From Mesostigma viride (lineage: Eukaryota > Streptophyta > Mesostigmatophyceae > Mesostigmatales > Mesostigmataceae), in contig RPFO01000076.1 of assembly GCA_009746045.1 (NCBI GenBank), positions 1,905,096-1,969,095 on the forward strand: a DNA stretch of 64,000 bases, in the 5' to 3' direction. The notes under the pieces were generated by a model, which did not search any database, was not told the DNA's origin, and saw nothing but the letters and a program-made list of their open reading frames with translations. A program made the position numbers and the translations under genes. Shown one piece after another: positions 10,001-50,298 of this stretch (positions are counted from its first letter, which is position 1; each line of letters begins with the position of its first letter).

Positions 10001-13000
10001 TGGCATGCGTGCGTGGGAGTGGGGAAGAGCTGCCATGCATGCATGTGGGGCGGGGCGGGCTGCCCGATGCATTCGTGGGTGTGGGGGGGGAGTGCCATGC
10101 ATGCGTGGGTTTAGGGGGGAGCTGCCATGCATGCATGTGGGGCGGGGCGGGCTGGCATGCGTGCCTGGGTCCGTGGGGTGGCTGGCATGCTACGTGGGTG
10201 TGGGGGGTGGCTGGCATGCGTGCGTGGGTTTGTGGGGTGGCTGGCATGCATGCGTGCATGTGGGGGGGGGCTGGCATGCATGCGTGGGTGTGGGGGGGGG
10301 CTGCCATGCTACGTGGGTGTGGGGGGGGTGGCTGGCATGCATGCGTGCATGTGGGGGGTGGCTGGCATGCATGCGTGCATGTGGGGGGGGGCTGGCATGC
10401 GTTTGTGGATTTATGGGAGGGCTGCCATGCGTGCGTGGGTGTCGGGGGGGGCTGGCATGCGTGCGTGGGTTCGTGGGGGTGCTGCCATGCATTCATGGGT
10501 GTGGGGGGGGAGTGCCATGCATGTGTGGGTTTAGGGGTTGGCTGGCATGCGTGCGCATTACAATTCGTTCAAGTGGCCCGCCGGAGCGGCTGTACAATTT
10601 TTCCCAGTGAGCACGCTGCCAAGTGTACTTGTGGGCAAATTTTTAGGTGCCCCGTCACTTCGAGGTACTAAAAATTGGGCTACGGTACGAACTCAGCGAA
10701 TTTCAGCGAATTTTCAGTCGAACCAAAGGAAGTGACGCCAACTACCAAAAAGATTCCGTTACGAATTTTCAGCCCAACACTCGCGCAAAATGAAGTGACG
10801 GCAACTACCAAAAAGTTTCCGTTACGAATTTTCACTCCCACACGTTTGCACAAGAGGAAGTGACGGCAACTACCAAAAAGTTTCCGTTACGAATTTTCAG
10901 TCCCACACTTCGCGCAAATTTTAGTAGGGCTGCACGCAAGCTACCTTTCAAAATTTTGCGCTAGTATGGAACGCATTTCATTCGTCTGGAGGAACGCTGC
11001 CCGCCAACTACCCCCGTTCAGAAAGTTCCGCCGAAATTTACTTGAGATTTGGAAATCTGAACTTCCGCGCAAATTTTAGTAGGGCTGCACGCAAGCCACC
11101 TTTCAAAATTTTGCGCAAGTATGGAACGCAATTCATTCGTCCGGAGGAATGCTGCTCGTCAACTGCCCCCGTTCAGAAAGTTGCGCCGAACTTTACTTGA
11201 GATTTGGAAATCTGAACGTGCGGTTGGAGTTTCGCGGGGAAACCCAAGTTCCCCAGTAATTCACCAATGACGCGCTTCGAACACTTGCCCGCTAAAACCT
11301 AAGCAGCCGCTCCGGCTGGCCACTTAAACGAAACTTGATGGTGGGTTCGTGGGATGGCTGGCATGCGTGTGTGGGTGTGGGTGGTGGCTGGCATGCATAA
11401 GTGGGTTTGTAGGGTCGCTGGCATGCATGCGTGGATGTGGGGGTGGCTGGCATGCATGCGTGGGTTTGTGGGGTGGCTGGCATGCATGCGTGCATGTGGG
11501 GGGTGGCTGGCATGCATGCTTGCATGTGGGGGGGGGCTGGCATGCATAAGTGCATGTGGGGGGGGGCTGGCATGCATAAGTGGATTTATGGGAGGGCTGG
11601 CATGCGTGCGTGGGTTCGTGGGGGTGCTGCCATGCATTTGTGGGTGTGGGGGGGGACTGCCATGTATGCGTGGGTTTATGGGGGGGCTGGCATGCGTGCC
11701 TGGGTTCGTGGGGTGGCTGGCATGCGTGTGTGGGTGTGGGTGGTGGCTGGCATGCATAAGTGGTTTTGTAGGGTCGCTGGCATGATTTATAATATGGCTC
11801 ATGACTCGATGAAATCAAATGGGTAAAAAGATTGGAGGTTTGTATTGTGATGCATATGTGTCGGCATCTTTTTCGTGCTCTTTTCGGTTTGCAGGCTCAA
11901 GGGATCGGACACCTTTTGCAGCATTGGGAGCGCAGGTGCTTGGAATTGCATGGAGGTGGCGGAGGTCGCCGTGCTTTGAATGTGTCGCTTGCGCCATTGT
12001 CTATGGTGCAGCCAGGCGTGGGTGCGCCTGTGGTGCAGGGACTAGCGAGCTAGTCACCTGTGATGGGTGCGCAGAGCCGGGACTGCCGTCTGGCCACAAC
12101 CAATGGCCGTGGATCCAGGGCCAGCAGCAGCGGGATGGCAAGCGGTGAGCACGCAGGCAGGGCAGGTGGCGGGAGCGAGGCTGCCGGGAAACGGCACGGC
12201 TTGGGGCCAGACAACAGCGACGGGGCAACCGGTCGCGGAGGTGCAGGCGGGCGCGGTATGGCCGCAAGCAGCGGGTTTGGAGCTTCGGTCGGGGCCATTG
12301 GCCACTGGCGCAGAGGGAGCACAGGCGGCAACGGTGTGGCACCCGGTAATTCACGTGCAGGCTGGCCAGGCTGGAGTGGCATTTCCACAAGTGGTTGGCC
12401 ATGCCACGGCAGTGGGTGCGCAGCCAGGGCACTGAGGTGGGCGCGGCAGTGCAACATGCGGTGGTGCGTAATCCTGTCGTGTTGCCGCCTACGGAGCCGG
12501 CGCCTGCGAGGGAGCCATCGCTGGGTTTGCAGCGCGCTCGTTCCTTGGCGGCAAGCACACCTGTCATGGGTGCGAGCACGGGGGGGGCTGAGAAGCCGGT
12601 GCCCGTGGTTCGCGGGGAATCGACGGCGGAAGGTGGCTCGCAGATCGTGGTATGTTTATCAAACGTTTTTAAAGGTTTGTGGCGTTGAGTGTGCTGTTGT
12701 GGCACTGGCGGTCAACGCAATAGAGGGGCAGTAGTGGCCACCAGAATTCGGCATTGCGGGTCGGGTAGCACCTTGGAAAGGGGATTTGGGTGCTGGCTCT
12801 CATCATGTGCAGATACTAGGGGTGTGCCAAGCGCTTGTCGGTACGCATGGAGGCTAAGCCAAGTTGGCAGGCAACAATCAGCGTGTGTCAAGGAAGTATC
12901 GCCTGTGCATGCTGTGGGGCAGGCGCATTGTCCTGGATGCATTGAATGTTGCTGCCAATGGTGGGGCGGCCTTGAAGTGAAGATGTGTCCACTGTTTTGG

Positions 13001-16000
13001 TCAGCTGAATCTTACACTTCTGCTTTTAACGGTCGATGTGATATTTGTGTATGTTTCTGCTATGCAGGTGGACATTAGTCGGTTCACATCTGCCTCAGAA
13101 TATGCTGCTGCTGCGAAGACTGGTCGTGCGAATGCTTGGGAGCAGATTTCTCGTGTGCAATTCCTGGAGGAGGCTTTGCAGGACAACTCTGATAAATTCA
13201 AGGATGCGGATGTGCGCACTGCTGTAAGTTCTTAATCGGATTTCTTTGAAAAGAGTTTCTCGAAGTGAGGCGGGGAATAAGGCCGCTCACGGGAGCCGCT
13301 TGGATGGTCGGCTGAACCGGGCGGGTTTGGCAGATGTAACCGGATTTGGCTAATGGCTGGCGACCTGGAATTGTTAGTAGGGGCAGTGGCCCTATTGTGC
13401 TACAATCTCGAAACAATCTTATGCTTAAAGTTTGACAGGGCCGGGTTTGTTGAACCGGTTTGTTGAATGATAATTAGAACCTTTCGGAAAGGGTATTTGA
13501 TTGGTTGTTGTTTTTGTGGTACGGTAGGTGTCGCTACATTCTCAGGTTGGCGTGTTAAGTTAAGCTCGGTTGCTGATGTCAGCCCCGTGCTAGGGCAGTT
13601 TGACTACTTTGGCGGCGTAGTGACATTGTTGTGGTCTTTTTTCTTGTAAACGTTGGCTGAGCGCCGACGGCTGAGGCTATGGCGGTACAAGAAGTGCCTC
13701 ACCAGCCTTGCGCTCAGCATGGGTGCGGGGCTAAAATTTGTTAACCAAATTTCCGGCATCCATGATCCCTGGCTGCTTAAGGCGGTTGGGATTCATGGCT
13801 GCCACTGGCCCGGAATTAATGTCCGGGTGATCGGGGTTTAAATGCGAAGCGGGGGCTGATGCATTATTTAATGGCTGGTTTGTTTGAAAGAAACGGCCAG
13901 CTGGCCGGGTTGGGCAAGGGCTAGCTTGCTTGATGGTTCCGTACCTGGGGATGCTTGCGCCTCGGGTTGGGCTGTCGGCAGGCTGGCCTGCCTTTGAGTT
14001 GTCTCGTACCTGGAAATGCTTGCATTCCGGGTTGGGCTTGGCTTGAGGGCCGCCGCGGCTCGGGGGGGTAAAAAATTTAAGTCACCGTTGTGGGACACGG
14101 AGCCTCGGCGCAGGAGGCAAGGGCTGAAAACCAACTTGATTTCGTAATCAGTGGTATTTCCACTTTTTTGTACGGAAGGAGTGTTTATGTGCTCGGCACT
14201 AGGTTGGTTGCTCTTCAAAAAAGTTGTAAACTGGGCGTCGGCTGGAATCAGCGGCGCCAGTCAGCAGCTTTTGCTTTGACTTTGTGTTCCGCGACAGCAC
14301 CCCTTAGCGGACCAGAGAAGAGGTCGGCAACGAGGTCAGCGGGGGCCCCCGAGTGGGGTCAAAAATGCGAGCTGTGTCGATCGACAGTGCATGAATTTTT
14401 GTGCATTCACAGTCGCTGGGAATTAAATCTGTTTTCTGGCAACGGAGAGCGCCCATCGCGACAGGACAGCTTTTGACGGGAAAGGAAATGGTGCTTCTTT
14501 AGCGGACCGGAGGGCCAGGAAGGGGAGGTTGGGTAATCGCGAGCCATGCCTAAGGAGTTCTTAATAGCGGTTCTGTAACCGCTACCTGTCTGTATGCATC
14601 TACTTATTGTTTTAACAAAGATGCTGGTGACTATGGTGAGCAAACGGGTGTATGAATCGGATTTCTTTGAAAAGAGTTTCTCGAAGTGAGGCGGGGAATA
14701 AGGCCGCTCACGGGAGCCGCCTGGATGGTCGGCTGAACCGGGCGGGTTTGGCAGATGTAACCGGATTTGGCTAATGGCTGGCGACCTGGAATTGTTAGTA
14801 GGGGCAGTGGCCCTATTGTGCTACAATCTCGAAACAATCTTATGCTTAAAGTTTGACAGGGCCGGGTTTGTTGAACCGGTTTGTTGAATGATAATTAGAA
14901 CCTTTCGGAAAGGGTATTTGATTGGTTGTTGTTTTTGTGGTACGGTAGGTGTCGCTACATTCTCAGGTTGGCGTGTTAAGTTAAGCTCGGTTGCTGATGT
15001 CAGCCCCGTGCTAGGGCAGTTTGACTACTTTGGCGGCGTAGTGACATTGTTGTGGTCTTTTTTCTTGTCCCACCCACCCACCCTCTTTGGTGGCCTGGTC
15101 TGCCCGGGTAATCGCGAGCCATGCCTAAGGAGTTCTTAATAGCGGTTCTGTAACCGCTACCTGTCTGTATGCATCTACTTATTGTTTTAACAAAGATGCT
15201 GGTGACTATGGTGAGCAAACGGGTGTATGAATCTGTTTAATTGCATTAATCTGCCAATGGGCTGGCGTGCATGCGTGGGTGTGGGGGGGAGCTGGCATGC
15301 ATGCTTGAGTGTGTGGGGTGGCTAGCATGCATGCGTGCATGTGGGGGGTGGCTGGCATGCATGCGTGGGTGTGGGGGGTGGCTGGCATGCATGCGTGCAT
15401 GTGGGGGGTGGCTGGCATGCATGCGTGGGTGTGGGGGGGGGCTGGCATGCGTGCGTGGGTGTGGGGGTGGCTGGCATGCGTGCGTGGGTGTGGGGGGGGC
15501 TGGCATGCGTGCGTGGGTGTGGGGGGTGGCTGGCATGGGTGCGTGGGTGTGGGGGTGGCTGGCATGCGTGCGTGGGTCTGGGGGTGGCTGGCATGCGTGC
15601 GTGGGTGTGGGGGGGGCTGGCATGCGTGCGTGGGTGTGTGGGGGGCTGCCATGCGTGCGTGGGTGTGGGGGGGGGCTGCCATGCGTGCGTGGGTTGGTGG
15701 GGTGGCTGGCATGCATGCGTGCATGTGCAGGGTGGCTGGCATTCTACGTGGGTGTGTGCGGGTGGCTGGCATGCGTGCATGGCTGTGGGGGTGGCTGGCA
15801 TGCGTGCGTGGGCGTGCAGGGTGGCTGGCATGCGTGCGTGGGTGTGGGTGGGTGGCTGGCATGCGTGCCTGGGTCCGTGGGGTGGCTGCCATGCTACGTG
15901 GGTGTGGGGGGGGGCTGGCATGCGTGCGTGGGTTTGTGGGGGGGCTGGCATGCATGCGTGCATGGGGGGGGGGGCTGGCATGCTACGTGGGTGTGGGGGG

Positions 16001-17709
16001 GGGCTGGTATGCGTGCATGGCTGTTAGGGTGGCTGGCATGCGTGCCTGGGTTGGTGGGGTGGCTGGCATGCATGCGTGCATGTGCAGGGTGGCTGGCATT
16101 CTACGTGGGTGTGTGCGGGGGGCTGGCATGCGTGCCTGGGTGTGTGGATTTTTTTATTTTTTTTTTAAGATATATGTATAGTCATGTTTGTTTTCTACTC
16201 ATGTACACTTTTGATTGGTCTTTGTTGGTATACATGTTGTTGGTGGTGTGCACAGCTTGCAGCTCTCAAGAAGGCGTTGCACGAAAGCAAGAGGAGATTT
16301 TACCGATTGTCTGTGGAGGCGCAGCATCGTCTGCAGGACTCTGCTCGTCACGATGCTACGAATGTTCCTCGGGGCGCGATGGACAAGCGTCGTTTTGTTA
16401 AGCTCCGGGATCCCGAAGGGATGATGCCTCGCATGATGATGCGCAAGGGTCGGTTGATAAAAAGGCGCGACATGGTGTCTCTGAGGTTGATGCACTGGAT
16501 TCAGCTGGGGCTCGTCTAGAACATCAGGTTTGTATGCTTTTTTTTTATTTTGCAGTGTGTTGCATTTCAAGACATGATTTTATTATTGTGTGTGTGTCAA
16601 TATCTTGTGTTAATACACCTCTGTCTTGCTGTTGTTTGTTCTTTGAGTACAGCTCCCCAGGCGCTTTGGGTCCGCTGATAAGTACGTGGCTTATGCAAAG
16701 AGTACGTCTCGCAAGTGGGCCATGGCTGAAGATGAGAAGATTGCGCTATTGGACTCGCTGTTGGCAGAGCTTCGTGGTGGTGGTCGTCCTTTTCAGGACG
16801 CGGTAAGTCATCATTGGGTTGTATTGATTGGATTTTTGTTAATGTCTTACACCCTCTTCATTCTCTGGTTTGTTGTGCACCAGGTAGTTTCCTCTCCGAT
16901 CTACCTGATCCAATTTGGTCATTGTTTTGTGTTTTTATTATGTTACATTTTCTTCCCACGCACCCACCCCCGCGCCTATTCAACGGCAGGCAACAACACT
17001 TACTAAGATGATGTACAAGCGTTGTAAGAAGCTCATTTCCGAAGCGGCTCCGGCTGATGTTGCTGTGGTACGTGTTTGTTGTAGCGTTTTTCTTTTGGCT
17101 AGTTGTATAGCTTTCGTGCATTCGTATATATATACATTCACTTCCTTCTTCAAGGAGTGTTGCCGGCTCCGGGAGGACCGGCTGGACCTGGAGGGCCAGC
17201 GGGCCCCATGGTCGGCGCGGACCTGGACGTCATATTGGCGTCAGCGCTTGTCGGTGGCGCTGACTCGGGCCATGGCTGACATCATGCTCCGCCGTACGCG
17301 GGCTGATTTTGCGGTGCAGCAGGGCTATTAGGTTCCTCCCGTTAGGCGTTTCCATTGGTCTTATCGTAGTATAGAGCTTTGACATGGCTCTGTATATACT
17401 ACTAGGTTTATAGCTGGGCGTTTGCTTTGGTTTGAGTGATTTCACTCTGCTGTAAGTAATTATAATTTTTTAATATATATATACATTAAATCTGAATTTT
17501 TTTTTGTATTTTTGTGCGTGTTTCTGTACTTCTAACCTGTCCAGGTCAACGGTGCCGTTTTCAATGGCCCTGGGGCGTATGAGGAGCTCGCGGAAGGTCT
17601 TTGTCACGATGCGTCATCATCCGTTTCAGACCGTCTGGACAACCTGCGCATGCTTCTCAACCAAGTTGCACATGACCAACAGCTTACACTGTCACAGAAG
17701 CTATCGCTG
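6936..17709 (+). CDS. unidentified multi-exon gene with TE-inflated introns
   Basis: Proposed exons: ?-7007, 7151-7318, 7485-7553, 9672-9857, 11895-12649, 13068-13223, 16256-16518, 16653-16802, 16990-17067 and 17545-17709. Every intron starts GT(G/A)AGT-like and ends (C/T)AG. All well-defined borders fall between codons (phase 0), which random ORFs would not give. The predicted protein is mostly helical and charged, with no domain I recognise. Without inserted repeats, most introns shrink to about 140-190 bases. Exon 11895-12649 has stops or frameshifts in every frame, and exon 16256-16518 needs a frameshift. The copy may therefore be decaying, or my borders there are wrong. The first and last exons are not identified. 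It could be a host gene or a large unclassified transposon gene. Confidence 0.5.
7151..7318 (+). CDS. exon of 56 codons, phase 0 on both sides
   Basis: The frame starts AGTAIGVDPRPRLQHYVDQA and ends GFCDNVYLT before the donor GTGAGTTAT. The middle is rich in aromatic and acidic residues (WLYQDDFTSQQTYVRDVINW), unlike the GC-rich noise around it. The exon length is divisible by three. The next intron (7319-7484) is 166 bases. Confidence 0.6.
7485..7553 (+). CDS. short exon of 23 codons
   Basis: The exon lies between the acceptor GGGCCGCAG and the donor GTGAGT. In phase 0 it reads MLHLVSFLPPMPSGGQTSAE plus three residues. A different frame also looks protein-like, so this is the weakest of the short exons. 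Its intron (7554-9671) would be only about 155 bases without element E2. Confidence 0.45.
7645..9608 (+). mobile_element. non-autonomous PAT/TOC-like element E2 (A1-B1-A2-B2)
   Basis: A1 (7645-8064) and A2 (9027-9446) are 420-bp direct repeats starting ATCGGGGTTCTTTGAACGG. B1 (8900-9028) and B2 (9480-9608) are 129-bp repeats starting GGGCAACGTACTTCATGAAG and ending GACATGAAT. Order: A1, 836-bp interior, B1, A2, a 33-base C-rich linker (CCCACCCACCCACCC), B2. The interior has no RT or recombinase. A 207-codon GC-rich ORF at 8274-8897 has no recognisable motif. The element lies in an intron 91 bases after the donor and 63 bases before the next exon. The circle-junction core appears to be AAT/CGG, as in E3, so mobilisation in trans by a relative of the E1 recombinase is likely. 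Confidence 0.88.
9672..9857 (+). CDS. exon of 62 codons, phase 0
   Basis: The exon is preceded by a pyrimidine-rich tract ending TGGTTGCTCAG and followed by the donor GTAAGTGAA. The reading begins LEVARFGNANAFLRAAALCS and ends GSEDYLAS. It contains many Arg, Ala and Glu residues compatible with helices (FLAGMLEARRLRQVYYQIED). No known domain is recognised. The downstream intron holds the first minisatellite array and one 785-bp element. Confidence 0.65.
9935..10555 (+). repeat. G-rich minisatellite array 1 (about 27-30-bp unit)
   Basis: The unit is close to GGCTGGCATGCGTGCGTGGG followed by TGTGGGGGG. GCATGC palindromes alternate with runs of 4-8 G. About 22 units. It continues as array 2 after the 785-bp inverted-repeat element, which split one original array. 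Overlapping long ORFs on both strands (Gly/Trp/His/Ala/Cys or Pro/His/Thr/Ala repeats) are artefacts of the period. Confidence 0.92.
10556..11340 (+). mobile_element. 785-bp terminal-inverted-repeat element, copy 1
   Basis: The ends are inverted repeats of about 37 bp: left CATTACAATTCGTTCAAGTG, right (read inward) CATCAAGTTTCGTTTAAGTG. Both continue into GGCC(C/A)GCCGGAGCGGCTG. The interior has four tandem copies of a motif containing CTACCAAAAAGTTTCCGTTA and two copies of a roughly 150-bp block ending GAGATTTGGAAATCTGAAC. No ORF. It splits the minisatellite; no target duplication longer than one base is evident. A second copy of the same length lies inverted at 35,536-36,320. Confidence 0.88.
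11341..11795 (+). repeat. G-rich minisatellite array 2 (continuation of array 1)
   Basis: About 16 units of the same GGCTGGCATGC... minisatellite. It resumes directly after the 785-bp element in the register expected for an uninterrupted array. The intron then ends about 100 bases later. Confidence 0.9.
11895..12649 (+). CDS. long low-complexity exon, reading frame broken
   Basis: The exon starts after TTTCGGTTTGCAG and ends at GTG before the donor GTATGTTTA. The entry frame (AQGIGHLLQHWERRCLELHG) stops at TAG 12051. Plausible protein then continues in a second frame (about 12064-12435), rich in Ala/Gly/Gln/Val with repeated VWPQ-type motifs. A third frame (12395-12649) leaves in phase 0. 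Either two frameshifts have accumulated or small unrecognised introns exist. The Ala/Pro/Gln-rich composition suggests a disordered linker. Confidence 0.4.
13068..13223 (+). CDS. exon of 52 codons, helical
   Basis: The acceptor TTCTGCTATGCAG and donor GTAAGTTCT frame an exon divisible by three. It reads VDISRFTSASEYAAAAKTGR and continues with a charged helix ending FKDADVRTA. Element E3 begins only 10 bases after the exon (13234), just inside the donor, which it preserves. The preceding interval 12650-13067 also contains a coding-like stretch near 12890-12980 that I could not fit into the model. Confidence 0.65.
13234..15232 (+). mobile_element. non-autonomous PAT/TOC-like element E3 (A1-B1-A2-B2)
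   Basis: A1 (13234-13647) and A2 (14655-15068) are 414-bp direct repeats starting AATCGGATTTCTTTGAAAAG. B1 (14531-14657) and B2 (15106-15232) are 127-bp repeats starting GGGTAATCGCGAGCCATGCC and ending GTGTATGAAT. A linker starting CCCACCCACCCACCC separates A2 and B2. The interior shares the phrase CCGTACCTGGGGATGCTTGC with E2 but has no coding motif. It inserted 10 bases downstream of an exon. The B core (ACTTATTGTTTTAACAAAGA) is shared with E1 and E2, pointing to one recombination system for three sequence families. Confidence 0.88.
15255..16150 (+). repeat. G-rich minisatellite array 3
   Basis: The longest array, about 33 units of the GGCTGGCATGC(A/G)TGCGT... repeat. It lies in the intron right after E3 and ends in a T-rich tract before the acceptor at 16255. 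Units vary in the length of the G run and in the ATG/GTG choice. The ORFs of up to 376 codons that span it are spurious. Confidence 0.92.
16256..16518 (+). CDS. charged, coiled-coil-like exon with a probable frameshift
   Basis: After the acceptor GTGTGCACAG the phase-0 frame reads LAALKKALHESKRRFYRLSV and onward to about 16410. Then an acidic/basic stretch (DKKARHGVSEVDALDSAGA, ending LEHQ before the donor GTTTGTATG) makes better sense in another frame, which ends in phase 0. In the starting frame a TAG occurs at 16517. A one- or two-base indel near 16400-16430 would explain this. Confidence 0.5.
16653..16802 (+). CDS. exon of 50 codons, phase 0
   Basis: The exon is preceded by TTCTTTGAGTACAG and followed by the donor GTAAGTCAT. 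It reads LPRRFGSADKYVAYAKSTSR and continues KWAMAEDEKIALLDSLLAEL to GGGRPFQDA. This is a compact helical segment with basic and acidic patches. No family is recognised. Confidence 0.65.
16990..17067 (+). CDS. exon of 26 codons, phase 0
   Basis: The acceptor CTATTCAACGGCAG and the donor GTACGTGTTT frame the peptide ATTLTKMMYKRCKKLISEAA ending PADVAV. It is basic and short. The following intron (17068-17544) carries the truncated LINE copy 17144-17463. Confidence 0.6.
17144..17463 (+). mobile_element. 5'-truncated LINE 3' end, copy 1
   Basis: From CCTTCTTCAAGG onward this matches the inverted copy at 19,120-19,780. It encodes only the last 60 or so residues (ending RRTRADFAVQQGY, stop at 17329-17331) and a roughly 130-base 3' tail. 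The tail contains a small hairpin (GAGTGATTTCACTC) and TGTAAGTAATTATA. The abrupt 5' border and AT-rich 3' end are typical of target-primed insertion. It lies inside the intron 17068-17544. Confidence 0.8.
17545..17709 (+). CDS. exon of 55 codons, phase 0 (last one recognised)
   Basis: The acceptor CTTCTAACCTGTCCAG and donor GTAAGTTTAG frame the peptide starting VNGAVFNGPGAYEELAEGLC. Its second half looks like an amphipathic helix (DRLDNLRMLLNQVAHDQQLT). The gene must continue, because a donor follows. The next intron begins with the fourth minisatellite array, and no later exon could be identified. Confidence 0.6.
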
Positions 17710-17765
17710 GTAAGTTTAGTTTTCTGATGTCAGATTGCCCTAGTTTGCAGTCGTTTTTAAGCTTT

Positions 17766-18474
17766 CAAGCTGGCATGCATGCGTGCATGTCGGGGGGCGC
17801 TGGCATGCGTGTGTGGATTCGTGGGGTGGCTGGCATGCGTGCCTGGGTTCGTGGGGTGGCTGGCATGCGTGTGTGGGTGTGGGTGGTGGCTGGCATGCAT
17901 AAGTGGGTTTGTAGGGTGGCTGGCATGCATACGTGGATGTGGGGGGGGGATGGCATGCGTGTGTGGATTTATGGGAGGGCTGGCATGCGTGCGTGCATGT
18001 GGGGGTGGCTGGCATGCATGCTTGCATGTGGGGGGTGGCTGGCATGCATGGGTGCATGTGGGAGGGGGCTAGCATGCGTGTGTGGATTTATGGGAGGGCT
18101 GGCATGCGTGCCTGGGTTCGTGGGGTGGCTGGCATGCGTGTGTGGGTGTGGGGAGGAGGTGCCACGCATGCGTGGGTTTAGGGGGGGGCTGGCATGCGTG
18201 CCTGGGTTTGTGGGGTGGCTGGCATGCGTGTGTGGGTGTGGGTGGTGGCTGGCATGCATAAGTGGGTTTGTAGGGCGGCTGGCATGCATGCGTGGGTGTG
18301 GGGGGTGGCTGGCATGCATGCGTCCATGTGGGGGGGGGCTGGCATGCGTGTGTGGATTTATGGGAGGGATGGCATGCGTGCCTGGGTTCGTGGGGTGGCT
18401 GGCATGCGTGTGTGGGTGTGGGTGGTGGCTGGCATGCATAAGTGGGTTTGTGGGGTGGCTGGCATGCGTGGAAA
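17766..18474 (+). repeat. G-rich minisatellite array 4
   Basis: About 26 units of the same minisatellite, beginning about 55 bases after the last recognised exon. Many units carry GGGTTCGTGGGGTGGC or GCATAAGTGGGTTTGT variants also seen in array 2. This suggests array 4 and array 2 derive from each other by segmental duplication or conversion. Confidence 0.9.
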
Positions 18475-25136: not shown

Positions 25137-25366
25137 GGAAGCTCGGCTCCCAGAGCCAGCCCCGGTTCACACAGAAGCTGCAGGAGTTAACGCCAAGCGC
25201 ATTGGCGTGTACCTGATTCGGCATATCTCTGCGATTCCAGCGGCACCGGAACGAGTTCATTCCGACAAGTGTCAAGAAAGTTATGGCGTTCCGACTTCCC
25301 GGTCGCGCGCGAGCGCGAGCCGGCTGTTCGTCTAAGTCGGACGTGAATATTTGCCGACGACATATG

Positions 25367-25910
25367 AGTTACGTTAAATAGTGCCGGAACCTTTTGCCGC
25401 CTGAGGCAAATCGGTCCGTCACACTATTTTGCCCGGAATAACCACTTCCAAGCACCCAAGTTAATTCGGCCGAATTAACTTGGGTGCTTGGAAGTGGTTA
25501 TTCCGGGCAAAATAGTGTGACGGACCGATTTGCCTCAGGCGGCAAAAGGTTCCGACACTATTTAACGTAACTAAAACCCGTGCAACTTGGAGGTCAGGGG
25601 TTCGAATCCTCACTGAGGCAGCTCCGGCGCATTTAGTGGTGCGTGCTCAGCGGCCTAGGCGGATGTCTCGGGCTCTTCATCCCCCCTCCACGAGGCCAGG
25701 TTTTAGTTACGTTAAATAGTGCCGGAACCTTTTGCCGCCTGAGGCAAATCGGTCCGTCACACTATTTTGCCCGGAATAACCACTTCCAAGCACCCAAGTT
25801 AATTCGGCCGAATTAACTTGGGTGCTTGGAAGTGGTTATTCCGGGCAAAATAGTGTGACGGACCGATTTGCCTCAGGCGGCAAAAGGTTCCGGCACTATT
25901 TAACGTAACT
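25367..25910. mobile_element. palindromic composite element, P-core-P (544 bp)
   Basis: Two 206-bp palindromes (25,367-25,572 and 25,705-25,910) flank a 132-bp core. Each palindrome consists of 103-bp arms meeting at AATTCGGCCGAATT. The second is perfect and the first has one mismatch. The ends are AGTTACG...CGTAACT. The host LTR sequence is duplicated as ATATG (25,362-25,366 and 25,911-25,915), proven by the uninterrupted LTR at about 33,700. The core begins AAAAC and ends GTTTT and carries a tRNA-like T-arm. No ORF. The termini and duplication size equal those of the Copia LTRs here. Confidence 0.92.
25573..25620 (+). other. tRNA-like 3' half in the palindromic element core
   Basis: Begins at the palindrome border with an anticodon-arm-like CTAAAACCCGTG, followed by a long variable region. 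Then come GGTTCGAATCC (25,599-25,609, a perfect Pol III B box) and an acceptor-like CTGAGGCA. No 5' half is present. A degenerate A-box-like CGGCAAAAGGT lies 59 bases upstream, in the palindrome arm. It is not a complete tRNA gene. Confidence 0.6.
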
Positions 25911-26432
25911 ATATGGGGTCGACAGTAATTCCTGGGCTGACAGGAATTAGGTGCTGAACCTACGACGGTATTGGATTAATACGTCGTACGCAGGAAATAG
26001 GAACCTTAACCTGTGGTCTGTTGGTACCGCAGGCTTAGTCCTGGACTTCTAGGTGCAGATGCAATAGTCACTGTGGACTGTGCTCTGTGGTCACTGTGCC
26101 TGTATGGCAGACCTACTGTATAGGAACTGGGCGCTGTACAGGTAGTGAATACTGTACCGGGAGTGTTATTACTGAGCAGGCATTCTGAGCTGCTCAGGAC
26201 TAGCAAGCACAGTGCACAAGTATATAAAGAATAGACCAGTGCCATTTGGGCAGATCTCTTGCGAGCCCGCCTCACGTGTGTTGCCTTGACTTGGCAAACT
26301 CGTGTACAAGCACTCACGTGCCCGAGTGCTGTAAGCCTATACAATTTAACAAAGCTCCGTTTCCAACCATATTCACACATTGCTGCATTGCAACAATATC
26401 CTTACATATTGCGTTCATAAGAAACGTTAACT

Positions 26433-27548: not shown

Positions 27549-28717
27549 ATGAGTGAGGGAGCTATTGACCAACAAGCGCGCTTATGGGCTTTGCGCGGCG
27601 CGGCGCTGGGATGGATGGACGATGGACGCGATGGACGCGATGGACGCGGGGACGGCCAGGCGCTGGGAGACCAGGCTGCGCTGCCAGATGATCAGAGCCA
27701 AGGATCTCAGGGCGGTCAGAACGCGCCAGCGCAGATCAAGCGGCACCTAAGCGACCGACCGTGGCTGAGGGGTACGCGGTGCTAGGCCAGTTTCAGTCCA
27801 TCAAGGACAATTGGCAGCCCCGGGACGCTGAGAGGATGTTAGAGGACATGAACTTGTACACGGACATCTACACCGGTGACAAGCTTCGCATCCTGGCGTC
27901 TAGTGCCTACATAAGGCAGTCGGCGAGGCGGCTGTTCAAGTTTGTTCGGGAGCGACACGGCGGGGACACCTGGGCGGCGTTTATGACGCGACTCAGTCGT
28001 TCCTGAGTGACAAGAGGACCATAGATGGGTCCCACCTGAAGCAAGAATACCTGGACTACAAGCCCATCAAGGGGCAGCTAGTGGTCCACGCCTTTGAAGA
28101 CTTCGTCAAGCTGAGGGAGGACGCCATGGCCAAGGATTCTTCGTTGCAGATCGGATGGCCATGGGCGACTTTCTCAAGTCGCTGCAGCTGGATCCGGTCA
28201 CCATGGATAATGTGACCATCCACATGCGACAGGTCCATGGCTGGGCAGCCATGACGGACCAGTTGTATGAGTGTTTCAGCGGCAAGTACGTAGGTGGTAA
28301 GCGCCCTCGTCAAGGGGACGAGGAGGCCGCTGAACCTGCGGTTAAGTCCATGAGGGGATCGGGCCACGGGGGCCCAGCGTCCTCGAGAGGGCCTGAGACC
28401 TCTTCAAGGGGTCGAGGAAGGTCCAGGAGGGGGCGTGACAGAAGGGCTGGACGGGGGACCCGCCGAAGTCGGGACATCCACAGTCCCAGTTTGACTTCAA
28501 GAGGGTGGGTGGTCCTCCCAAGGCTGGGCCCAGCAGTGGGACCTCACGGGACATCAGTCAGGTGGAATGTTATTTCTGCCAAGGGAAGGGTCACTTCAGG
28601 AATGAGTGTCCCTCGTACCTGAGGCAGGAAGGTCAGAGCAAGCCAGCTCAGGGTGGCAGCAAGGACAAGGCTGGTCCATCCCAGGATAAGGGCAAGGGCA
28701 AGGCTGCTGATCATTGA
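27549..28717 (+). pseudogene. C2 gag with CCHC zinc knuckle, frameshifted
   Basis: The capsid-like part reads AEGYAVLGQFQSIKDNWQPR and continues KLRILASSAYIRQSARRLFK. After about 28,000 the frame is lost and regained (MAMGDFLKSLQLDPVTMDNV). A second shift occurs in the Arg/Gly-rich linker near 28,470. The zinc knuckle CYFCQGKGHFRNEC (about 28,570-28,612) is intact, followed by a Lys/Gly/Pro tail. The tail ends at TGA 28,715-28,717, in the same frame as pol 33 bases later. In the related C3 copy that codon is GGA, so gag and pol form one frame. C2 gag is nonfunctional unless complemented. Confidence 0.82.
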
Positions 28718-28750
28718 CTTGAGCCTGCACACATCCCTGAACCCTGGAGG

Positions 28751-31700
28751 GTGCCCCCAGGGGTGTGTAATGTAGCTGCTAGTGACGGCAGTGAGGGGCA
28801 GCCCCATGCTCTAGTGACAGAGCCTATTGGACACGATGGGGCAAGCTTGGTTACCACAGAGAGTATGCCAGCTGTAGCTGCAGTGGTTACTCGCCAACGT
28901 GCCCGCCATGGCGGTGCTGAGCCTGAGGTAGGACCTGGTGATGTGGACCCAGGTGGATCTCAGAAGCATTCTGACCGTGCAGGACTGGCACAGGATGGTC
29001 AGGATGAGGATAGGGCTGGAGACAGTCTGACAGGCACGACCCTGGTGCCTCCTGTACATAAGGGATCTGTACATACCTTGAGTGCTAATAATGACAATAA
29101 AAGATTTTCTCTCTTGTATGACATTGCCTCAAGGTTGCATACCATGTTTGGCCATGCAGCTCAGTCTTTGCAAGTTGCTAGACGGCTGGGAGGAAGTGAG
29201 TTGTACTCCATCTGCCAACAGGTTGCTCAAGCTTGCAAGTGCAGGCTAGTTGCTAGAAAGCCCAAGCAGTCTCATGCCAGGACTCCTATTTTGCAGCCAG
29301 GCCATGTGCAGGTAGATATTCAGAGAATCAGGGGTTTGAAGCTGCTGGTGGCAGTGGACAGATATACCAAGTACAAGACCCTAGAGATCCTGCCTGACAT
29401 GGAGAAGCCTACATTGATTGCTGCTCTGAAGTTGACAAGGAGCAGGTACCCTGGGTTGGAGTTGTTGCAGTGTGACATTCAGTTTGAGTGCTGTGAGAAC
29501 CTGCCAGAGTTTCCAGAGTTGCTGATTACACCCAGGGAGAGCCACGGCCAGCAAGGGGTGGTGGAGAGAGCCATCCAAGAGATCAAGACTGTGCTGCTGG
29601 TGGAGAGGATTCCAAGGACGTCATCTGCCATTGTGACATCTGCATGGCTACGTTCTGTGGAGGATAGGCTGAACCTCAGGACTCCCATGTTCTTTGGTGA
29701 CATTGCCATCAATCCTCTTATGCTGCATACCAGGATGCTGCCAGCTGATGCTGAGCAGGCATGGAAGGAGAAGCTAGAGGCCAAGTTCCTCAAGCTGAGG
29801 CAGAAAGACAAGGGCTGGAGTGTCCTAGAACCTAACGTTGGACAACAGGTTGTTGTGTGGAAGGAACCAAGCTTTCCAGGGAAACGTGGCAGCTGGCATG
29901 ATGGGGTGGTGACCCGAGTAGAAGCCGCTGGCCATAAGTGCTGGGTGGCCATTGATGGCTCCCAAGCAGTGCACCGTCTGTCCTGGTCAAAGATCCGTCC
30001 CCGGGGAGGTAATCAAGGAGACCTCTTCCAGGTGCCCGTTGGTGTACAAGGCGGGGGTGACGTGGAGCTTCCTGATCAGGGTGCTACAGCTGTATCGAGC
30101 CCTCAGGGTGACCCTGGCCCGGCCCCTGGGGTACCTTCACATACGGTGGTTGGGCAAGCAGGCGGACAGGCTGCACCTCCGGAACGGCCCGACACCAGGC
30201 CTAGGGGTGTGCGTCTATCAGATATTGTACAGGCTTTGCAAAGAGCCAAGAAGGAGCCTAAGGTGTCCAAGCTTGTCCAGTTGGATGAACCTGAGGTAGC
30301 TGCCATGGAGATAGATACCAATGCACAGGTTTCTGTCATGGGACCTCAGCATACAGGAGAACTGCTGGTCGGAGAACCAAGTTGCCCCTGGGTGTCTGAT
30401 TTCAGTGGTAGGACGCATCTAAGGGTGTTGGGAGAGGTTACTGCCCCTGTCATGGGTGTGGATGTGACCTTCCTTGTCCTAGAGGACTATGATGGCCCTG
30501 TGATTTTGGGTCAGAATTTTCTGGGCAATCCTGGGATTTCTATCAGAGCTACAGCTCTGAGAAGAGATGGCTGGGGGATGATTCCCCTAGAAAATTTCAG
30601 GACAACATTTCCAGTCAGGTGCAGGGCCAAGCCGGTCAAGGGTGTAAAATGGGATGAAGGGGAGGTGCCCCCAGCAGCCAGTTTGGTGATTCCAGCTGTG
30701 TTGCACCCCAGCAGTATTGGCATAACTCACAGGAGCCTTGCTGCACACTCTCCTTTGACATATGACCAGCTGGTCCAAGAGATGAGCTCGCCTACTTTGT
30801 TTGAGGCTTGGAAGCTCGCCTTCTCCAAGGCATTGGAGGAGTGGTTGCAGTTTGAGTGTGCTGCACCAACAGACAGACGTCCCCCAGCATCAAGGAAGCT
30901 TGCTTTGAGATTTGTGCTGAAGAGGAAGGTTGTGGATGAGGTATCAGTGCCCCATGTCAGGCCTGTCCTGAATGAGTATCACGGCACGGGGAGTCTGCCA
31001 GGAGAGGAGCTGTACACGCCAGGGATGCTACACGACACATGGAGAATTTTGCTATGTCTCTACGTGGGGTTGCTGAACAGGGGAGCAGCTATGTCATCAG
31101 TGCTGCTGGACTTCAAGAGGGCATTTTTAAAATCTGATCCAGAAGTGGCCAGGAGGGTGTGGAAGCAGGATGAGCCTTACTGTGTTGAGGTGCCTGCCAT
31201 CTGGAAGCTGGAGCTGCATCAACAATTCCTGGTTATTCTGAAGGGCCTGGAAGGACTCAGGTCGAGCCCAATCATCTGGAGACTCACGCTGCAGGAAGCT
31301 CTGATCAGTGAGTGTGGCTTGAGAGTGTCTTCAGTTGATCCCTGTTTGCTGCTGGCCCAATGGGAGGGTCTGCCAGTGTATGCTAGTTTGCATGGAGATG
31401 ATCTGCATTTGCTAGCCCCCACGACCTGGCTGAAGAAGTTTATTCCTGTCATCAGTGGCAAGTTTTCACTGGGCAAGGAGCTGTGGCAGGAGCCCAACAA
31501 GCCTGTAGTGTTCTGTGGAATGCAGGCTACCCTGTTCAGGAGGGATGGGGAGTGGAGTATCAGGCTTCAGGCTGGAGGAGATTATAAACAGACCATTGTG
31601 AAGGCCTTGCCAGAGAAGATCACCCAGGCTGCAGGACCTGAGTTGAGAGGCATGTGGGCCTGGTTTGCCAGCATCTGTGGTCCGTCTTTGATGGTCCATA

Positions 31701-32308
31701 GCAGAATGCCTGATGAGGTGCTTGAGGATGAGAAGCCTCGAGTCATAGCCCGATTGGTGGAGAGTACCCCTGATCTGATTTTGTCTGGGATTGACTTTGC
31801 CCAGCCTATCACCTTGGAGATCTTTGTTGACAGTTCCATGGATGCTCGCCAGGTTACCAAGGTCAGGGGGAGATCTGCTGCTCTGTTTGCTTTTTATCAG
31901 AGCAGGGCAAGTTTGTTCAGCTGGTACAGCAGACTGCAGAAGAGGGTCTGTATCAGTTCAGATGTGGCAGAATGCAGGGCCATATGCGAGGGGATCCAGT
32001 CCAGCTTGTACATAAAGGAGTTAATGCTGGAGCTGGCTTCAGTTACCCCTTGGACCTTGCAGATGGAGACGTTGTTGCTAACAGACAGCATGGGTATGGT
32101 CCAGTTTGTTCACAAGCAGCTGGCCAGAAGCCGGGACCTGGATTATTTGATGCTGAAGGAGTTGGCCAGTTTGGTTGACTTGAAGCATATCCCTGGCGAG
32201 GAGAACCCTGCTGATGCATTGACCAAGCTGCCACACAAGGCCCCAGTCCAGTACAATGTACTGAGGAAGCTCATGAATGCTGACTGTCAAGTCGGTCTAT
32301 CTGTCTAA
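28751..32308 (+). CDS. C2 pol polyprotein: integrase, protease, RT, RNase H (1185 codons, intact)
   Basis: Approximate residue order: linker 1-100. Integrase 125-430, with LHTMFGH and a CKC pair as zinc domain, VQVDIQRIRG, LQCDIQFEC, and ESHGQQGVVERA whose glutamate is 29 residues after the second aspartate. Integrase tail with GQQVVVWKEPSFPGKRGSWH. Protease 515-610, with the active-site-like motif EIDTNAQVSVMG and VILGQNFLG near its end. RT 690-930, with LLDFKRAFLKSD and YASLHGDDLHLL. RNase H 1010-1175, with VDSSMDARQ, AECRAI, LTDSMG and GEENPADALTKLP. Known Copia order is PR-INT-RT and Gypsy order is PR-RT-RH-INT; here the protease lies between integrase and RT. The start codon is the first ATG after the gag TGA. 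Confidence 0.92.
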   Translation: MPPGVCNVAASDGSEGQPHALVTEPIGHDGASLVTTESMPAVAAVVTRQRARHGGAEPEVGPGDVDPGGSQKHSDRAGLAQDGQDEDRAGDSLTGTTLVPPVHKGSVHTLSANNDNKRFSLLYDIASRLHTMFGHAAQSLQVARRLGGSELYSICQQVAQACKCRLVARKPKQSHARTPILQPGHVQVDIQRIRGLKLLVAVDRYTKYKTLEILPDMEKPTLIAALKLTRSRYPGLELLQCDIQFECCENLPEFPELLITPRESHGQQGVVERAIQEIKTVLLVERIPRTSSAIVTSAWLRSVEDRLNLRTPMFFGDIAINPLMLHTRMLPADAEQAWKEKLEAKFLKLRQKDKGWSVLEPNVGQQVVVWKEPSFPGKRGSWHDGVVTRVEAAGHKCWVAIDGSQAVHRLSWSKIRPRGGNQGDLFQVPVGVQGGGDVELPDQGATAVSSPQGDPGPAPGVPSHTVVGQAGGQAAPPERPDTRPRGVRLSDIVQALQRAKKEPKVSKLVQLDEPEVAAMEIDTNAQVSVMGPQHTGELLVGEPSCPWVSDFSGRTHLRVLGEVTAPVMGVDVTFLVLEDYDGPVILGQNFLGNPGISIRATALRRDGWGMIPLENFRTTFPVRCRAKPVKGVKWDEGEVPPAASLVIPAVLHPSSIGITHRSLAAHSPLTYDQLVQEMSSPTLFEAWKLAFSKALEEWLQFECAAPTDRRPPASRKLALRFVLKRKVVDEVSVPHVRPVLNEYHGTGSLPGEELYTPGMLHDTWRILLCLYVGLLNRGAAMSSVLLDFKRAFLKSDPEVARRVWKQDEPYCVEVPAIWKLELHQQFLVILKGLEGLRSSPIIWRLTLQEALISECGLRVSSVDPCLLLAQWEGLPVYASLHGDDLHLLAPTTWLKKFIPVISGKFSLGKELWQEPNKPVVFCGMQATLFRRDGEWSIRLQAGGDYKQTIVKALPEKITQAAGPELRGMWAWFASICGPSLMVHSRMPDEVLEDEKPRVIARLVESTPDLILSGIDFAQPITLEIFVDSSMDARQVTKVRGRSAALFAFYQSRASLFSWYSRLQKRVCISSDVAECRAICEGIQSSLYIKELMLELASVTPWTLQMETLLLTDSMGMVQFVHKQLARSRDLDYLMLKELASLVDLKHIPGEENPADALTKLPHKAPVQYNVLRKLMNADCQVGLSV

Positions 32309-32939: not shown

Positions 32940-33060
32940 CCAGATCTGTGGTTTGTGGGCGGGGTTCGATTCCCTGGTGCCGTCTTAAGGCGGAGTTTCA
33001 CGGACTGGCTGACCCATCCACCATGCTGGTGAGGTGGCGACAGGTCCCCTGATTTTCCAC
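32940..33060 (+). other. conserved 3' block with tRNA T-arm-like hairpin (C2)
   Basis: Contains GCGGGGTTCGATTCCCTGG, a 5-bp stem with a TTCGATT loop, as in tRNA T-arms. It then has GGCTGACCCATCCACCATGC and TGGTGAGGTGGCGACAGGTC. The same block stands in the 3' noncoding part of C4 (57,970-58,075), although the rest of these regions does not align. Conservation of a noncoding block across diverged families suggests a cis-acting RNA role. Confidence 0.6.
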
Positions 33061-33520
33061 GGTTGGAATGAGTATAGGAGCTTGTGTTTTGCATTTGCTT
33101 CGCGTAGATGTTGTGTCTGGTTCGATAAGGGGCAGCAGACCGGCGCCGACTCCCGTCTGGTGGGGGTCAGCAATGTTTTCTGATGAGCTGTTGTGGGTGA
33201 TCTGTGGGGTTTCGCCTAAGGTCCTGAAGGTTGTACATACTTCTCAAGTTCTTAGCTGAACACCTATGGGCTGCCACAGTTGGCCAACCTCTTGTACATG
33301 GGTAACACAACGAGCCTCCCGTGAAGGGATAGGGACTCATTGTAATTTGTTTGTGCTCCTGAACCAGTATGGGTGCTATGTACATATAATAAGGAATCCA
33401 AGCTGACTGTCATGCCCAGCGGGTTGTGACTTGTAGTCGGGGAGGATGTCCAGTACCCATTGTGTGTGTTTGTATGTAGACTTGTGTGAGCTGCTACAGC
33501 TCAAGAAAAGAAAGGATTGG

Positions 33521-34201
33521 AGTTAACGCCAAGCGCATTGGCGTGTACCTGATTCGGCATATCTCTGCGATTCCAGCGGCACCGGAACGAGTTTATTCCG
33601 ACAAGTATCAAGAAAGTTATGGCGTTCCGACTTCCCGGTCGCGCGCGAGCGCGAGCCGGCTGTTCGTCTAAGTCGGACGTGAATATTTGCCGACGACATA
33701 TGGGGTCGACAGTAATTCCTGGGCTGACAGGAATTAGGTGCTGAACCTACGACGGTATTGGATTAATACGTCGTACGCAGGAAATAGGAACCTTAACCTG
33801 TGGTCTGTTGGTACCGCAGGCTTAGTCCTGGACTTCTAGGTGCAGATGCAATAGTCACTGTGGACTGTGCTCTGTGGTCACTGTGCCTGTATGGCAGACC
33901 TACTGTATAGGAACTGGGCGCTGTACCGGGAGTGTTATTACTGAGCAGGCATTCTGAGCTGCTCAGGACTAGCAAGCACAGTGCACAAGTATATAAAGAA
34001 TAGACCAGTGCCATTTGGGCAGATCTCTTGCGAGCCCGCCTCACGTGTGTTGCCTTGACTTGGCAAACTCGTGTACAAGCACTCACGTGCCCGAGTGCTG
34101 TAAGCCTATACAATTTAACAAAGCTCCGTTTCCAACCATATTCACACATTGCTGCATTGCAACAATATCCCTACATATTGCGTTCATAAGAAACGTTAAC
34201 T
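33521..34201 (+). repeat. 3' LTR of C2
   Basis: 681 bp, starting AGTTAACGCCAAGCGC and ending AAACGTTAACT. It is followed by the GCAGG target duplication (34,202-34,206). It provides the uninterrupted reference that proves the palindromic insertion in the 5' LTR. Confidence 0.93.
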
Positions 34202-34206
34202 GCAGG

Positions 34207-35535
34207 TCCTTCCAGTCTGGCGGCTTGACTCCCAGAGCCAACCCTAACAACTGGAGACCCTGCACCTGCCACAGGCACAGGGAATTCCACTGCTGCAGCA
34301 GCGTTATTGCAATCATTGAGTGGAAGCACCTCATCATTCCCAACCCCTTGCTGCTGCACAAGAGGGAGACCCCCATTACTATGTACAACTGATGTCTGTC
34401 CCACTAGGAGTGATTGACTATTTACATGCAGGGGACAACATATCAATTCATGGCTTACCCACCTGGCCAGAGCCTGCTCCAGCAGACTTGGCCTGGTCTG
34501 GGCAGTCACGTCGCCAATGACCTGTCCTGCCACAGCCAAAGCACTTGTCATCCTTCCCAGCAGTAGCCTTCTTCAGGCCACCCTGGTTCTGGCTGCTCTG
34601 ACTGGCCTGGGTGCCCTAGCCCTGGCTCTTGCCTTGCCCTTGGCCACCCTTGTTCTGCTGACCACCCTGGTGACCACCAGCCTGCTGCTGACCCTTGCCT
34701 TTGCATGGATCCCTGCTGCGGGCCCTTGCCACCCTGGTTACCATTCTGCCTGCGCCTGTTAGCCCTCTGACGCCTACTAGGCCTGGGATCTGCCTGAGCA
34801 CCCTGCCCAGGGGCATCACCATGGACCTGATGAGCGGAGGCTCAGGAAGTCACCTGGATTGCCTTGCAAGCAGCATTGTCAGATGGACGGATATTGAAAA
34901 TAACCTTTTGCAAGGCTGTCCATGTCCCATCTGTCTGATCAGCAAACATCCTAGCTGCATTTCTCCCATCCACACTCAGCCCCATGCGATCCAGGAAGTA
35001 ATCTGCCACTGCTCTGTCAGTCAGATTGAAGCCATGCTTGGCCCCCTTCTCCCTGATGCGTGTGAGCCGCTGCAGCTCCTCAGCTATCGTGCCCTTGATC
35101 TCAAAGGTATCATAGCTGAGCTTATAGTGATTAGTGAGGTTGAGTACCTTATCAGAGAACTCCTGACGTAGGCCCTCTAGGAACTGAGACCAGGTCAGCT
35201 TGTCCTTGACAGCTTGCCTAGCCTTGTCCCTCACACGCTCACTGGAATCCCTATTAGTCGTGGATGTGTGGAATACCTGCACAAGGTTGACAGTGGGATC
35301 TACAGAGCAGGAAACTAGTAGCTCCATATCCTCCAACAACTTGTCTAGCTCTTCCTGTCCCACAGGAGGCTTGAGAGGCTTCTGGCCATTCATCACAGCC
35401 ACAGCACTCATGTGAGCTCTAGTCCCAGGCAAAGCACGAGGGTCACTGCCAATGACAGGAGCTCCTACCGGTGCTAAAGGCCCAGGAGCACTAGCTGCAG
35501 GTGGAGTGACACCAGAATCAGGCACACATGGTCTC
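34207..35535 (-). pseudogene. Element B gag: capsid-like region and CCHC zinc knuckle
   Basis: The minus-strand ORF 35,525-34,842 carries a capsid-like segment (EELDKLLEDMELLVSCSVDP, then FLEGLRQEFSDKVLNLTNHY and DYFLDRMGLSVDGRNAARMF). After a Gln/Gly/Arg-rich stretch in another frame, KCFGCGRTGHWRRDCP (around 34,520-34,560) gives the C-x2-C-x4-H-x4-C knuckle. It parallels the C2 and C4 gags in layout. It ends where C2 inserted. Its N-terminal part lies beyond the 785-bp element (36,585 to 36,321), where a Gly/Ser-rich ORF begins MLRNTRGSGSGSGAGDGG. Confidence 0.75.
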
Positions 35536-36320
35536 CATCAAGTTTCGTTTAAGTGGCCAGCCGGAGCGGCTGCTTAGGTTTTAGCGGGCAAGTGTTCGAA
35601 GCGCGTCATTGGTGAATTACTGGGGAACTTGGGTTTCCCCGCGAAACTCCAACCGCACGTTCAGATTTCCAAATCTCAAGTAAAGTTCGGCGCAACTTTC
35701 TGAACGGGGGCAGTTGACGAGCAGCATTCCTCCGGACGAATGAATTGCGTTCCATACTTGCGCAAAATTTTGAAAGGTAGCTTGCGTGCAGCCCTACTAA
35801 AATTTGCGCGGACGTTCAGATTTCCAAATCTCAAGTAAATTTCGGCGGAACTTTCTGAACGGGGGTAGTTGGCGGGCAGCGTTCCTCCAGACGAATGAAA
35901 TGCGTTCCATACTAGCGCAAAATTTTGAAAGGTAGCTTGCGTGCAGCCCTACTAAAATTTGCGCGAAGTGTGGGACTGAAAATTCGTAACGGAAACTTTT
36001 TGGTAGTTGCCCTCACTTCCTCTTGTGCAAACGTGTGGGAGTGAAAATTCGTAACGGAAACTTTTTGGTAGTTGCCGTCACTTCATTTTGCGCGAGTGTT
36101 GGGCTGAAAATTCGTAACGGAAACTTTTTGGTAGTTGGCGTCACTTCCTTTGGTTCGACTGAAAATTCGCTGAAATTCGCTGAATTCGTACCGTAGCCTA
36201 ATTTTTAGTACCTCGAAGTGACGGGGCACCTAAAAATTTGCCCACAAGTACACTTGGCAGCGCGCTCACTGGGAAAAATTGTACAGCCGCTCCGGCGGGC
36301 CACTTGAACGAATTGTAATG
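35536..36320 (-). mobile_element. 785-bp terminal-inverted-repeat element, copy 2
   Basis: The same length as copy 1 (10,556-11,340), in opposite orientation. It shows only scattered differences, for example CCCTCACTTCC where copy 1 reads GGAAGTGACGG on its strand. It splits the Element B gag. No clear target duplication. Two near-identical copies at unrelated sites show recent activity of a family that codes for nothing itself. Confidence 0.88.
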
Positions 36321-49676: not shown

Positions 49677-50078
49677 TTTATTGTCATTATTAGCACTCAA
49701 GGTATGAGTTATTATAAATAGTGACGGAACCTTTTTGCCACTTGGGCATTAAGGTCCGTCACTATTTATCCGGCGAAAACCACTCGCCGGCATCTATTCC
49801 GCGTTAAGTTCACGTGAACGTGGCGCGGAATTGATGCCGGCGAGTGGTTTTCGCCGGATAAATAGTGACGGACCTTAATGCCCAAGTGGCAAAAAGGTTC
49901 CGTCACTATTTATAATAACTAAAACGTCGTAGTGTGGGGGCCGATATCTATCGTACCGCTGATGCCTACTGCAGTACCGAATCTCGCCTTAACGATATTC
50001 CAACCGGGCATATTTTCCCTTCTGGCACTTTCGTTTGGCCTTCTGGTATCAATTCCTTCCGGTATTCGGAAATACCCG

Positions 50079-50118
50079 TGTCACCACAGGGATTCGAACC
50101 CCCGACTTACGAGGTCTT
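50079..50118 (-). other. tRNA-like 3' half in core 1 (antisense)
   Basis: The inverted twin of 50,333-50,372. It ends at the palindrome with GAGGTCTT and contains GGATTCGAACCCC, the complement of the B box. Confidence 0.6.
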
Positions 50119-50298
50119 AGTTATTATAAATAGTGACGGAACCTTTTTGCCACTTGGGCATTAAGGTCCGTCACTATTTATCCGGCGAAAACCACTCGCC
50201 GGCATCAATTCCGCGCCACGTTCACGTGAACTTAACGCGGAATAGATGCCGGCGAGTGGTTTTCGCCGGATAAATAGTGACGGACCTTAATGCCCAAG

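Follow-up and report, generated by a model that had tools for sequence, protein, structure and literature searches.

The window, the stretch of 64,000 nucleotides analysed here, contains at 25367-25910 a single inserted unit in which two 206-bp palindromes (P) flank a 132-bp core. The unit interrupts the 5' LTR of a Copia element (C2). The features of the window copy and of C2 are as follows.

25185-26432, + strand: C2 Copia 5' LTR, interrupted by the window copy
25362-25366, no strand: left 5-bp target duplication ATATG, the empty site being in the C2 3' LTR
25367-25572, no strand: left palindrome P, 103+103, one mismatched pair, 99%
25541-25549, + strand: A-box-like GGCAAAAGG, recognised by eye, adjoining the core head
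25573-25704, + strand: core, 132 bp, with the tRNA-like head at the left and the TTTT tail at the right
25599-25609, + strand: B box GGTTCGAATCC, inside the 17-bp neighbourhood where cores 1 and 2 align best locally
25705-25910, no strand: right palindrome P, 100%
25911-25915, no strand: right 5-bp target duplication ATATG
28718-32308, + strand: C2 Copia-like pol ORF, of the supposed integrase donor type
33521-34201, + strand: C2 Copia 3' LTR, carrying the empty site

The left and right palindromes differ by one base over 207 nt, and the inverted repeat of the window copy reaches 212 nt once the core ends AAAACC...GGTTTT are counted. Self-BLAST aligned the C2 3' LTR (33519-34201) across the insertion site, with an overlap of only 5 bp (33698-33702). 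Because both alignments share just these five bases, the 3' LTR represents the empty site of the window copy, and the proposal of the initial annotation that P-core-P had inserted as one unit with the target-site duplication (TSD) ATATG was borne out. Two direct terminal repeats and a short core without long coding capacity are also a trait of TRIM elements.

Genomic copies and the architecture of arrays

The host genome (440 Mb, 2,243 contigs) was searched with a 17-mer from the arm, which occurred 2,407 times (1,201 + 1,206); the reversed control gave 0. Each intact palindrome contains the 17-mer twice, and the genome carries over a thousand such palindromes. Beyond the window we sampled 57 regions, comprising 39 that were ranked by similarity (drawn from hits where 40 of 700 candidates were scored) and 18 taken in listing order, unranked. 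Six allelic or haplotig duplicates (L045, L055, L056, L061, L069 and L074) were removed on the basis of their flanks, and the remaining regions, together with the window copy and a family 2 element described below, made up 53 de-duplicated insertions. An exact 5-bp TSD was present in 51 of these 53, one of which matches over 7, and 47 different TSD sequences were seen, which upheld the duplication length given in the initial annotation. The two misses were L066, which lies beside a run of N, and L095, which begins at a contig end. The target sites showed a weak symmetric preference at most. Copies had been envisaged as P, P-core-P or longer, and solo P, P-core-P and longer arrays were all found.

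Full-length cores were scored in 51 family 1 arrays, where '>' denotes a core read from head to tail. A divergent 236-bp solo palindrome related to P (L079:1001-1236), which has the TSD ACATG and a nested inner hairpin, was excluded from this tally. The commonest array fetched was the mirror dimer P<core P core>P, and 23 arrays were of this '<>' form. There were 11 trimers, 10 arrays with a single core, two with four cores, two with five and one with six; the remaining arrays were one '<<' dimer (L059) and one that was core-less (L086). Eight of the ten single-core arrays were clean, and the other two were cut, by N in L066 and by the contig start in L095. Truncated palindromes occurred in some two- or three-core arrays (L044, L048, L060, L083, L088 and L089). 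Both core tails pointed outward in 39 of the 40 multimers, and this rule was followed by all 12 multimers in the 18 regions unranked by similarity. The two cores of a two-core array were identical in 16/24 cases, compared with 23% for cores of different loci.

Exact junction counts across the genome, which leave out mixed-allele joints, gave 240 head-P-head joints (207 with head allele T and 33 with allele C), 17 tail-P-tail joints, and 93 tail-P-head joints (45 + 48, for head allele T only). Head junctions with allele T numbered 831 in total, and subtraction of 2 x 207 and 93 leaves up to 324, which would be shared among single-core arrays, mixed-allele joints and damaged copies. Monomers may therefore be commoner genome-wide than they are in our sample.

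The window also holds a member of a second family, unmentioned in the initial annotation.

49707-50744, no strand: family 2 mirror dimer, TSD GTATG
49707-49920: outer P2
49921-50118: core2, reverse
50119-50332: middle P2
50333-50530: core2, forward
50531-50744: outer P2

The core of family 2 is 198 bp long and unlike that of family 1, and its 214-bp palindrome has arms related to those of family 1. Palindromy is retained in both families despite the diverged arms. The empty site of the family 2 element is visible by comparison with 28139-29101.

A possible third family is represented by a 76-bp perfect palindrome, AGTTAA...TTAACT, which adjoins a reversed B box (tRNA-like head) at L049:2378-2522; it lies inside a 40-bp satellite, with the tail side absent and without a TSD. 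The window further contains two large minisatellites that are related to each other (9930-11784 and 15259-18470), and an insert of 786 bp splits the former, with an inverted copy (99%) at 35535-36320.

Symmetry of outer and internal palindromes

Arms were compared over arm positions 1-94 in the 42 arrays whose palindromes are complete (8 single-core and 34 multimers). Positions 95-103 were left out, a cut chosen after terminal asymmetry had been seen to gather at position 97, which is six bases from the palindrome centre, where a hairpin loop would sit. Terminal palindromes were self-symmetric in 74 of 84 cases and internal palindromes in 32 of 58 (Fisher p = 1.3e-5), and multimers alone gave 59/68 terminal against the same internal count (p = 1.2e-4). 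When the arms of multimers were shuffled within arrays (5,000 runs), symmetric terminal palindromes averaged 37.7 with a maximum of 48, compared to the 59 seen, and the mean for internal palindromes was 31.8 compared to the 32 seen, indicating no excess of symmetry at internal positions. Inclusion of the central bases weakened the contrast (64/84 terminal and 31/58 internal, p = 0.006); ten of the 84 terminal palindromes were asymmetric outside the centre.

The two outer palindromes differed from each other in 20/42 arrays, and in 13 arrays both ends were symmetric yet unlike. This argues against LTR-style copying of both outer palindromes from one template and against gene conversion affecting all palindromes alike. 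Central asymmetry at both outer palindromes was mirrored in 3/3 multimers (L062, L082 and the family 2 element), and the monomer L042 had centrally asymmetric palindromes in direct orientation. In an LTR cycle both outer repeats derive from one template, giving identical direct repeats. The suggestion in the initial annotation that the palindromes act as LTRs is therefore consistent with the monomers, whose outer palindromes were identical in 7/8 (15/34 in multimers, p = 0.047), but it does not extend to the arrays with unlike outer palindromes, each mostly self-symmetric, or to the dimers marked at both ends, which are mirrored and not direct.

The window copy carries A at arm position 84 (A84) in all four arms, and this base was found in 0/366 other aligned arms (duplicates included). 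A84 is a private change that spread to all four arms of this copy. Its presence in all four fits a symmetric re-making of arms, and it also needs end-to-end copying within the monomer, as in the LTR cycle. The spread of A84 and the almost invariable identity of monomer ends suggest that monomers and multimers may arise differently.

Arms on the two sides of a core were identical in 58/100 comparisons, close to the within-locus background of 53%, indicating that units are mosaics. The idea that each unit is homogeneous, with arm-core-arm forming one haplotype, was dropped on the same figures.

Promoter-like motifs and resemblance to Copia elements

Locally, cores 1 and 2 are most alike at GTCRGGGGTTCGAATCC, a match that contains the B box and scored 29, compared to 23 for the best of 200 shuffles. 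The stretch of P beside the B box carries GGCAAAA(A)GG, which is A-box-like by eye and falls where arms 1 and 2 are most strongly conserved. We found 134 matches to the B box in 236 kb (the window and fetched sequence) where 0.45 were expected, and at least 126 of these belong to family 1, the family by which loci had been selected. The B box is in the core and the A-box-like motif in P, so that the Helenus (TRIMp3) trait of boxes inside the repeat is absent. A core variant lacking six bases just past the B box (core 42-47) still occurs in arrays with a TSD, and a tRNA acceptor stem therefore seems unnecessary. The TTTT between the core and the tail P could stop Pol III before P.

Neither the window nor L049 yielded a tRNA in ARAGORN, and Rfam at the gathering score reported nothing in the window. 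Loose E-values yielded mostly chance hairpin (miRNA) matches in Rfam, and family 2 gave a sub-threshold match to mascRNA-menRNA (21.7 bits, cut-off 42.5). Neither a PBS nor a PPT was recognised by eye in the P elements, unlike C2 and Element B, in which purine-rich stretches (also identified by eye) precede the 3' LTR. The dinoflagellate spliced-leader motif was absent from the window, Pfam named no host gene among the other window ORFs, and viral_contigs contained no exact match to one arm pattern.

The second Copia element used for comparison, Element B, is represented by the following feature.

51685-52312, + strand: Element B 5' LTR, ends AGTTA...TAACT

The LTRs of C2 have the ends AGTTAACG...CGTTAACT, and the element has the TSD GCAGG. 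The 5' LTR of Element B has the ends AGTTAATA...CGTTAACT, and its 3' LTR is shortened. The ends AGTTA...TAACT are thus common to the P elements, the C2 LTRs and the Element B 5' LTR. The initial annotation had equated six terminal bases and the 5-bp duplication with those of Copia LTRs; the common end comprises five bases (AGTTA), and the equality of the duplication holds for C2. A TSD of fixed length and ends in common with an autonomous LTR element, here C2, are a further trait of TRIM elements. Since the local Copia LTRs share both the ends and the 5-bp duplication, a Copia integrase is the likely inserter, and the P elements were likely integrated in trans by an enzyme of this type. Comparison of P arms and cores with the LTR bodies of C2 and Element B revealed no clear similarity (the best case was reached by 7/100 shuffles).

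One database relative was listed for the C2 ORF, P0001 (62-63% identical). No Pfam retroelement model, RVT_2 included, matched the C2 ORF itself, and P0001 gave matches to RVT_2 (E 0.014) and rve (E 0.15), neither of which reached the curated cut-off. The RT region of P0001 matched Copia-type proteins at E 7.8e-5. Integrase motifs were recognised in the C2 ORF by eye; the modelled structure of the integrase region was not of usable quality (pLDDT 45), and a PDB profile search returned nothing relevant. A Copia-like integrase with a matching end sequence therefore appears to be at hand, and it may have moved the P elements.

By eye, the C2 pol (28718-32308) appears to be ordered integrase, protease, RT and RNase H, the protease thus following the integrase. 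Two Copia families share, between pol and the 3' LTR, a stretch of 93 bp with 88% identity (32957-33049 and 57979-58069); over a longer alignment their pol sequences are about 68% identical. The 93-bp stretch holds a tRNA T-arm-like GGGTTCGATTCCC, and a similar motif is found in L051 and L073; Rfam reported nothing for the stretch at 32957-33049. This motif could possibly be linked to the B box found in P elements.

A replication model and its alternatives

As the best explanation we favour, with moderate confidence, a non-autonomous retroelement with palindromic terminal repeats, for which a Copia-type integrase would act in trans, mirror dimers would be primed by the palindromes, and ends would be rebuilt through hairpins. 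The Pol III promoter would consist of the A-box-like motif in P and the B box in the core, and the RNA would begin beside the core head, run toward the tail P and be reverse-transcribed by a Copia RT. Because P is self-complementary, minus-strand cDNAs could fold back or pair mutually at their 3' (head) ends. Pairing of palindromic heads would prime second-strand synthesis without a polypurine tract and would give the mirror dimer P<P>P with tails outward, and at each end a hairpin would let the inner arm serve as the template for a new outermost arm. Integrase cutting within a palindrome could free P ends, and the AGTTA...TAACT ends would be recognised by the Copia-type integrase for integration. 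Ty1 is a Copia-type element. Packaging of RNA dimers, as reported for Ty1 in excerpts of PMC5454406, would provide two cDNAs.

A fuller reading, which we put forward tentatively and with less confidence, is that palindrome chemistry replaces both LTR strand transfer and the PPT: the cDNAs of the two packaged RNAs would cross-prime at their heads, hairpin fold-back would restore the termini, and the mirror dimer would integrate. Re-making of outer ends by fold-back would be a step that ordinary retroelements are not known to take. If this is true, self-complementary repeats can stand in for R-region transfer and the PPT when a reverse-transcribed element completes its ends, array haplotypes are a record of replication steps, and the mechanism is testable from sequence alone. 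P elements also illustrate a way for inverted repeats, which are dsRNA-prone, to spread within a genome.

The elements may instead be ordinary TRIM-type LTR elements in which the LTR is palindromic by chance and arrays formed by unequal exchange after insertion, as proposed for Cassandra, whose arrays are attributed to recombination between LTRs in excerpts of PMC7215508. The occurrence of solo P, P-core-P and P-core-P-core-P with one TSD would be expected on this basis, as would the identical palindromes of most monomers and the presence of A84 in each of the four arms at 25367-25910. We nevertheless consider it unlikely, as it fails to predict the excess of mirror over head-to-tail dimers (23 to one), tail-outward ends, or outer palindromes that are unlike but self-symmetric, and no PPT was recognised in the P elements.

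Units joined head to head in arrays with as many as six cores, palindrome centres in both orientations and the symmetry of the outer palindromes could also result from a DNA-level element that passes through linear intermediates with hairpin ends (rolling-hairpin or telomere-resolvase-like) and is integrated by some recombinase. DNA of the parvovirus type, which replicates by a rolling hairpin, has terminal palindromes, flip/flop centres and head-to-head concatemers. P elements resemble it in their terminal palindromes, in centres found in both orientations and in head-to-head joints, but differ in the dominance of head-only joining, in Copia-like ends and TSD, and in that no Rep gene was noticed. 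Random or alternating concatemer fragments predict equal numbers of tail-P-tail and head-P-head joints, against the 17 and 240 counted; the 5-bp TSD and the ends match Copia, and no coding partner with the same ends was noticed in the sequence inspected. A DNA-level origin of this kind therefore seems less probable still. Transib elements have 5-bp TSDs and CAC... ends. A foldback or MITE-type DNA transposon with a 5-bp TSD (Transib-like) would account for long inverted repeats and a precise TSD, but the ends of P equal those of the local Copia LTRs, and cut-and-paste would explain neither symmetry confined to the ends nor dimers with outward tails, which makes this explanation highly improbable.

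No published description of palindromic LTRs or of such mirror-dimer arrays was recognised, from titles or the opening of abstracts, among the open-licence PMC papers searched, Repbase being outside the scope of this search. The P elements may be a new variant, possibly with a new mode of replication. As described in excerpts of the Helenus report (TRIMp3; Kojima 2024, PMC10886601), that element is short, non-autonomous and of LTR type; it carries A and B boxes derived from a tRNA, has a 5-bp TSD in fungi and plants, and is presumed to be mobilised by Copia in fungi. P elements are likewise short and non-autonomous, with tRNA-type boxes and a 5-bp TSD. In these excerpts, however, Helenus carries its tRNA-like sequence within the LTR and has both a PBS and a PPT, whereas the boxes of P elements straddle P and core, P is palindromic, mirror dimers are common, and no PBS or PPT was recognised by eye. 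The term 'palindrom' is absent from the main text of the Helenus paper.

Arrays in which adjacent units share a repeat are also found in Cassandra, a Pol III-type TRIM (PMC7215508, in excerpts); those arrays are described as tandem and as arising by LTR recombination, whereas P arrays are mirror images whose tails face outward. The harvester ant element PbTRIM is, in excerpts of PMC3532108, a short LTR-core-LTR element with solo LTRs and is similar in these respects, but has a 4-bp TSD, a PBS and a PPT; neither 'palindrom' nor 'tandem' occurs in the main text of that paper. Foamy-virus integrase is described, in excerpts of PMC1180852, as cutting a palindromic LTR-LTR junction made of its own end sequences; that palindrome is a short LTR-LTR junction, and P is a 206-bp repeat.
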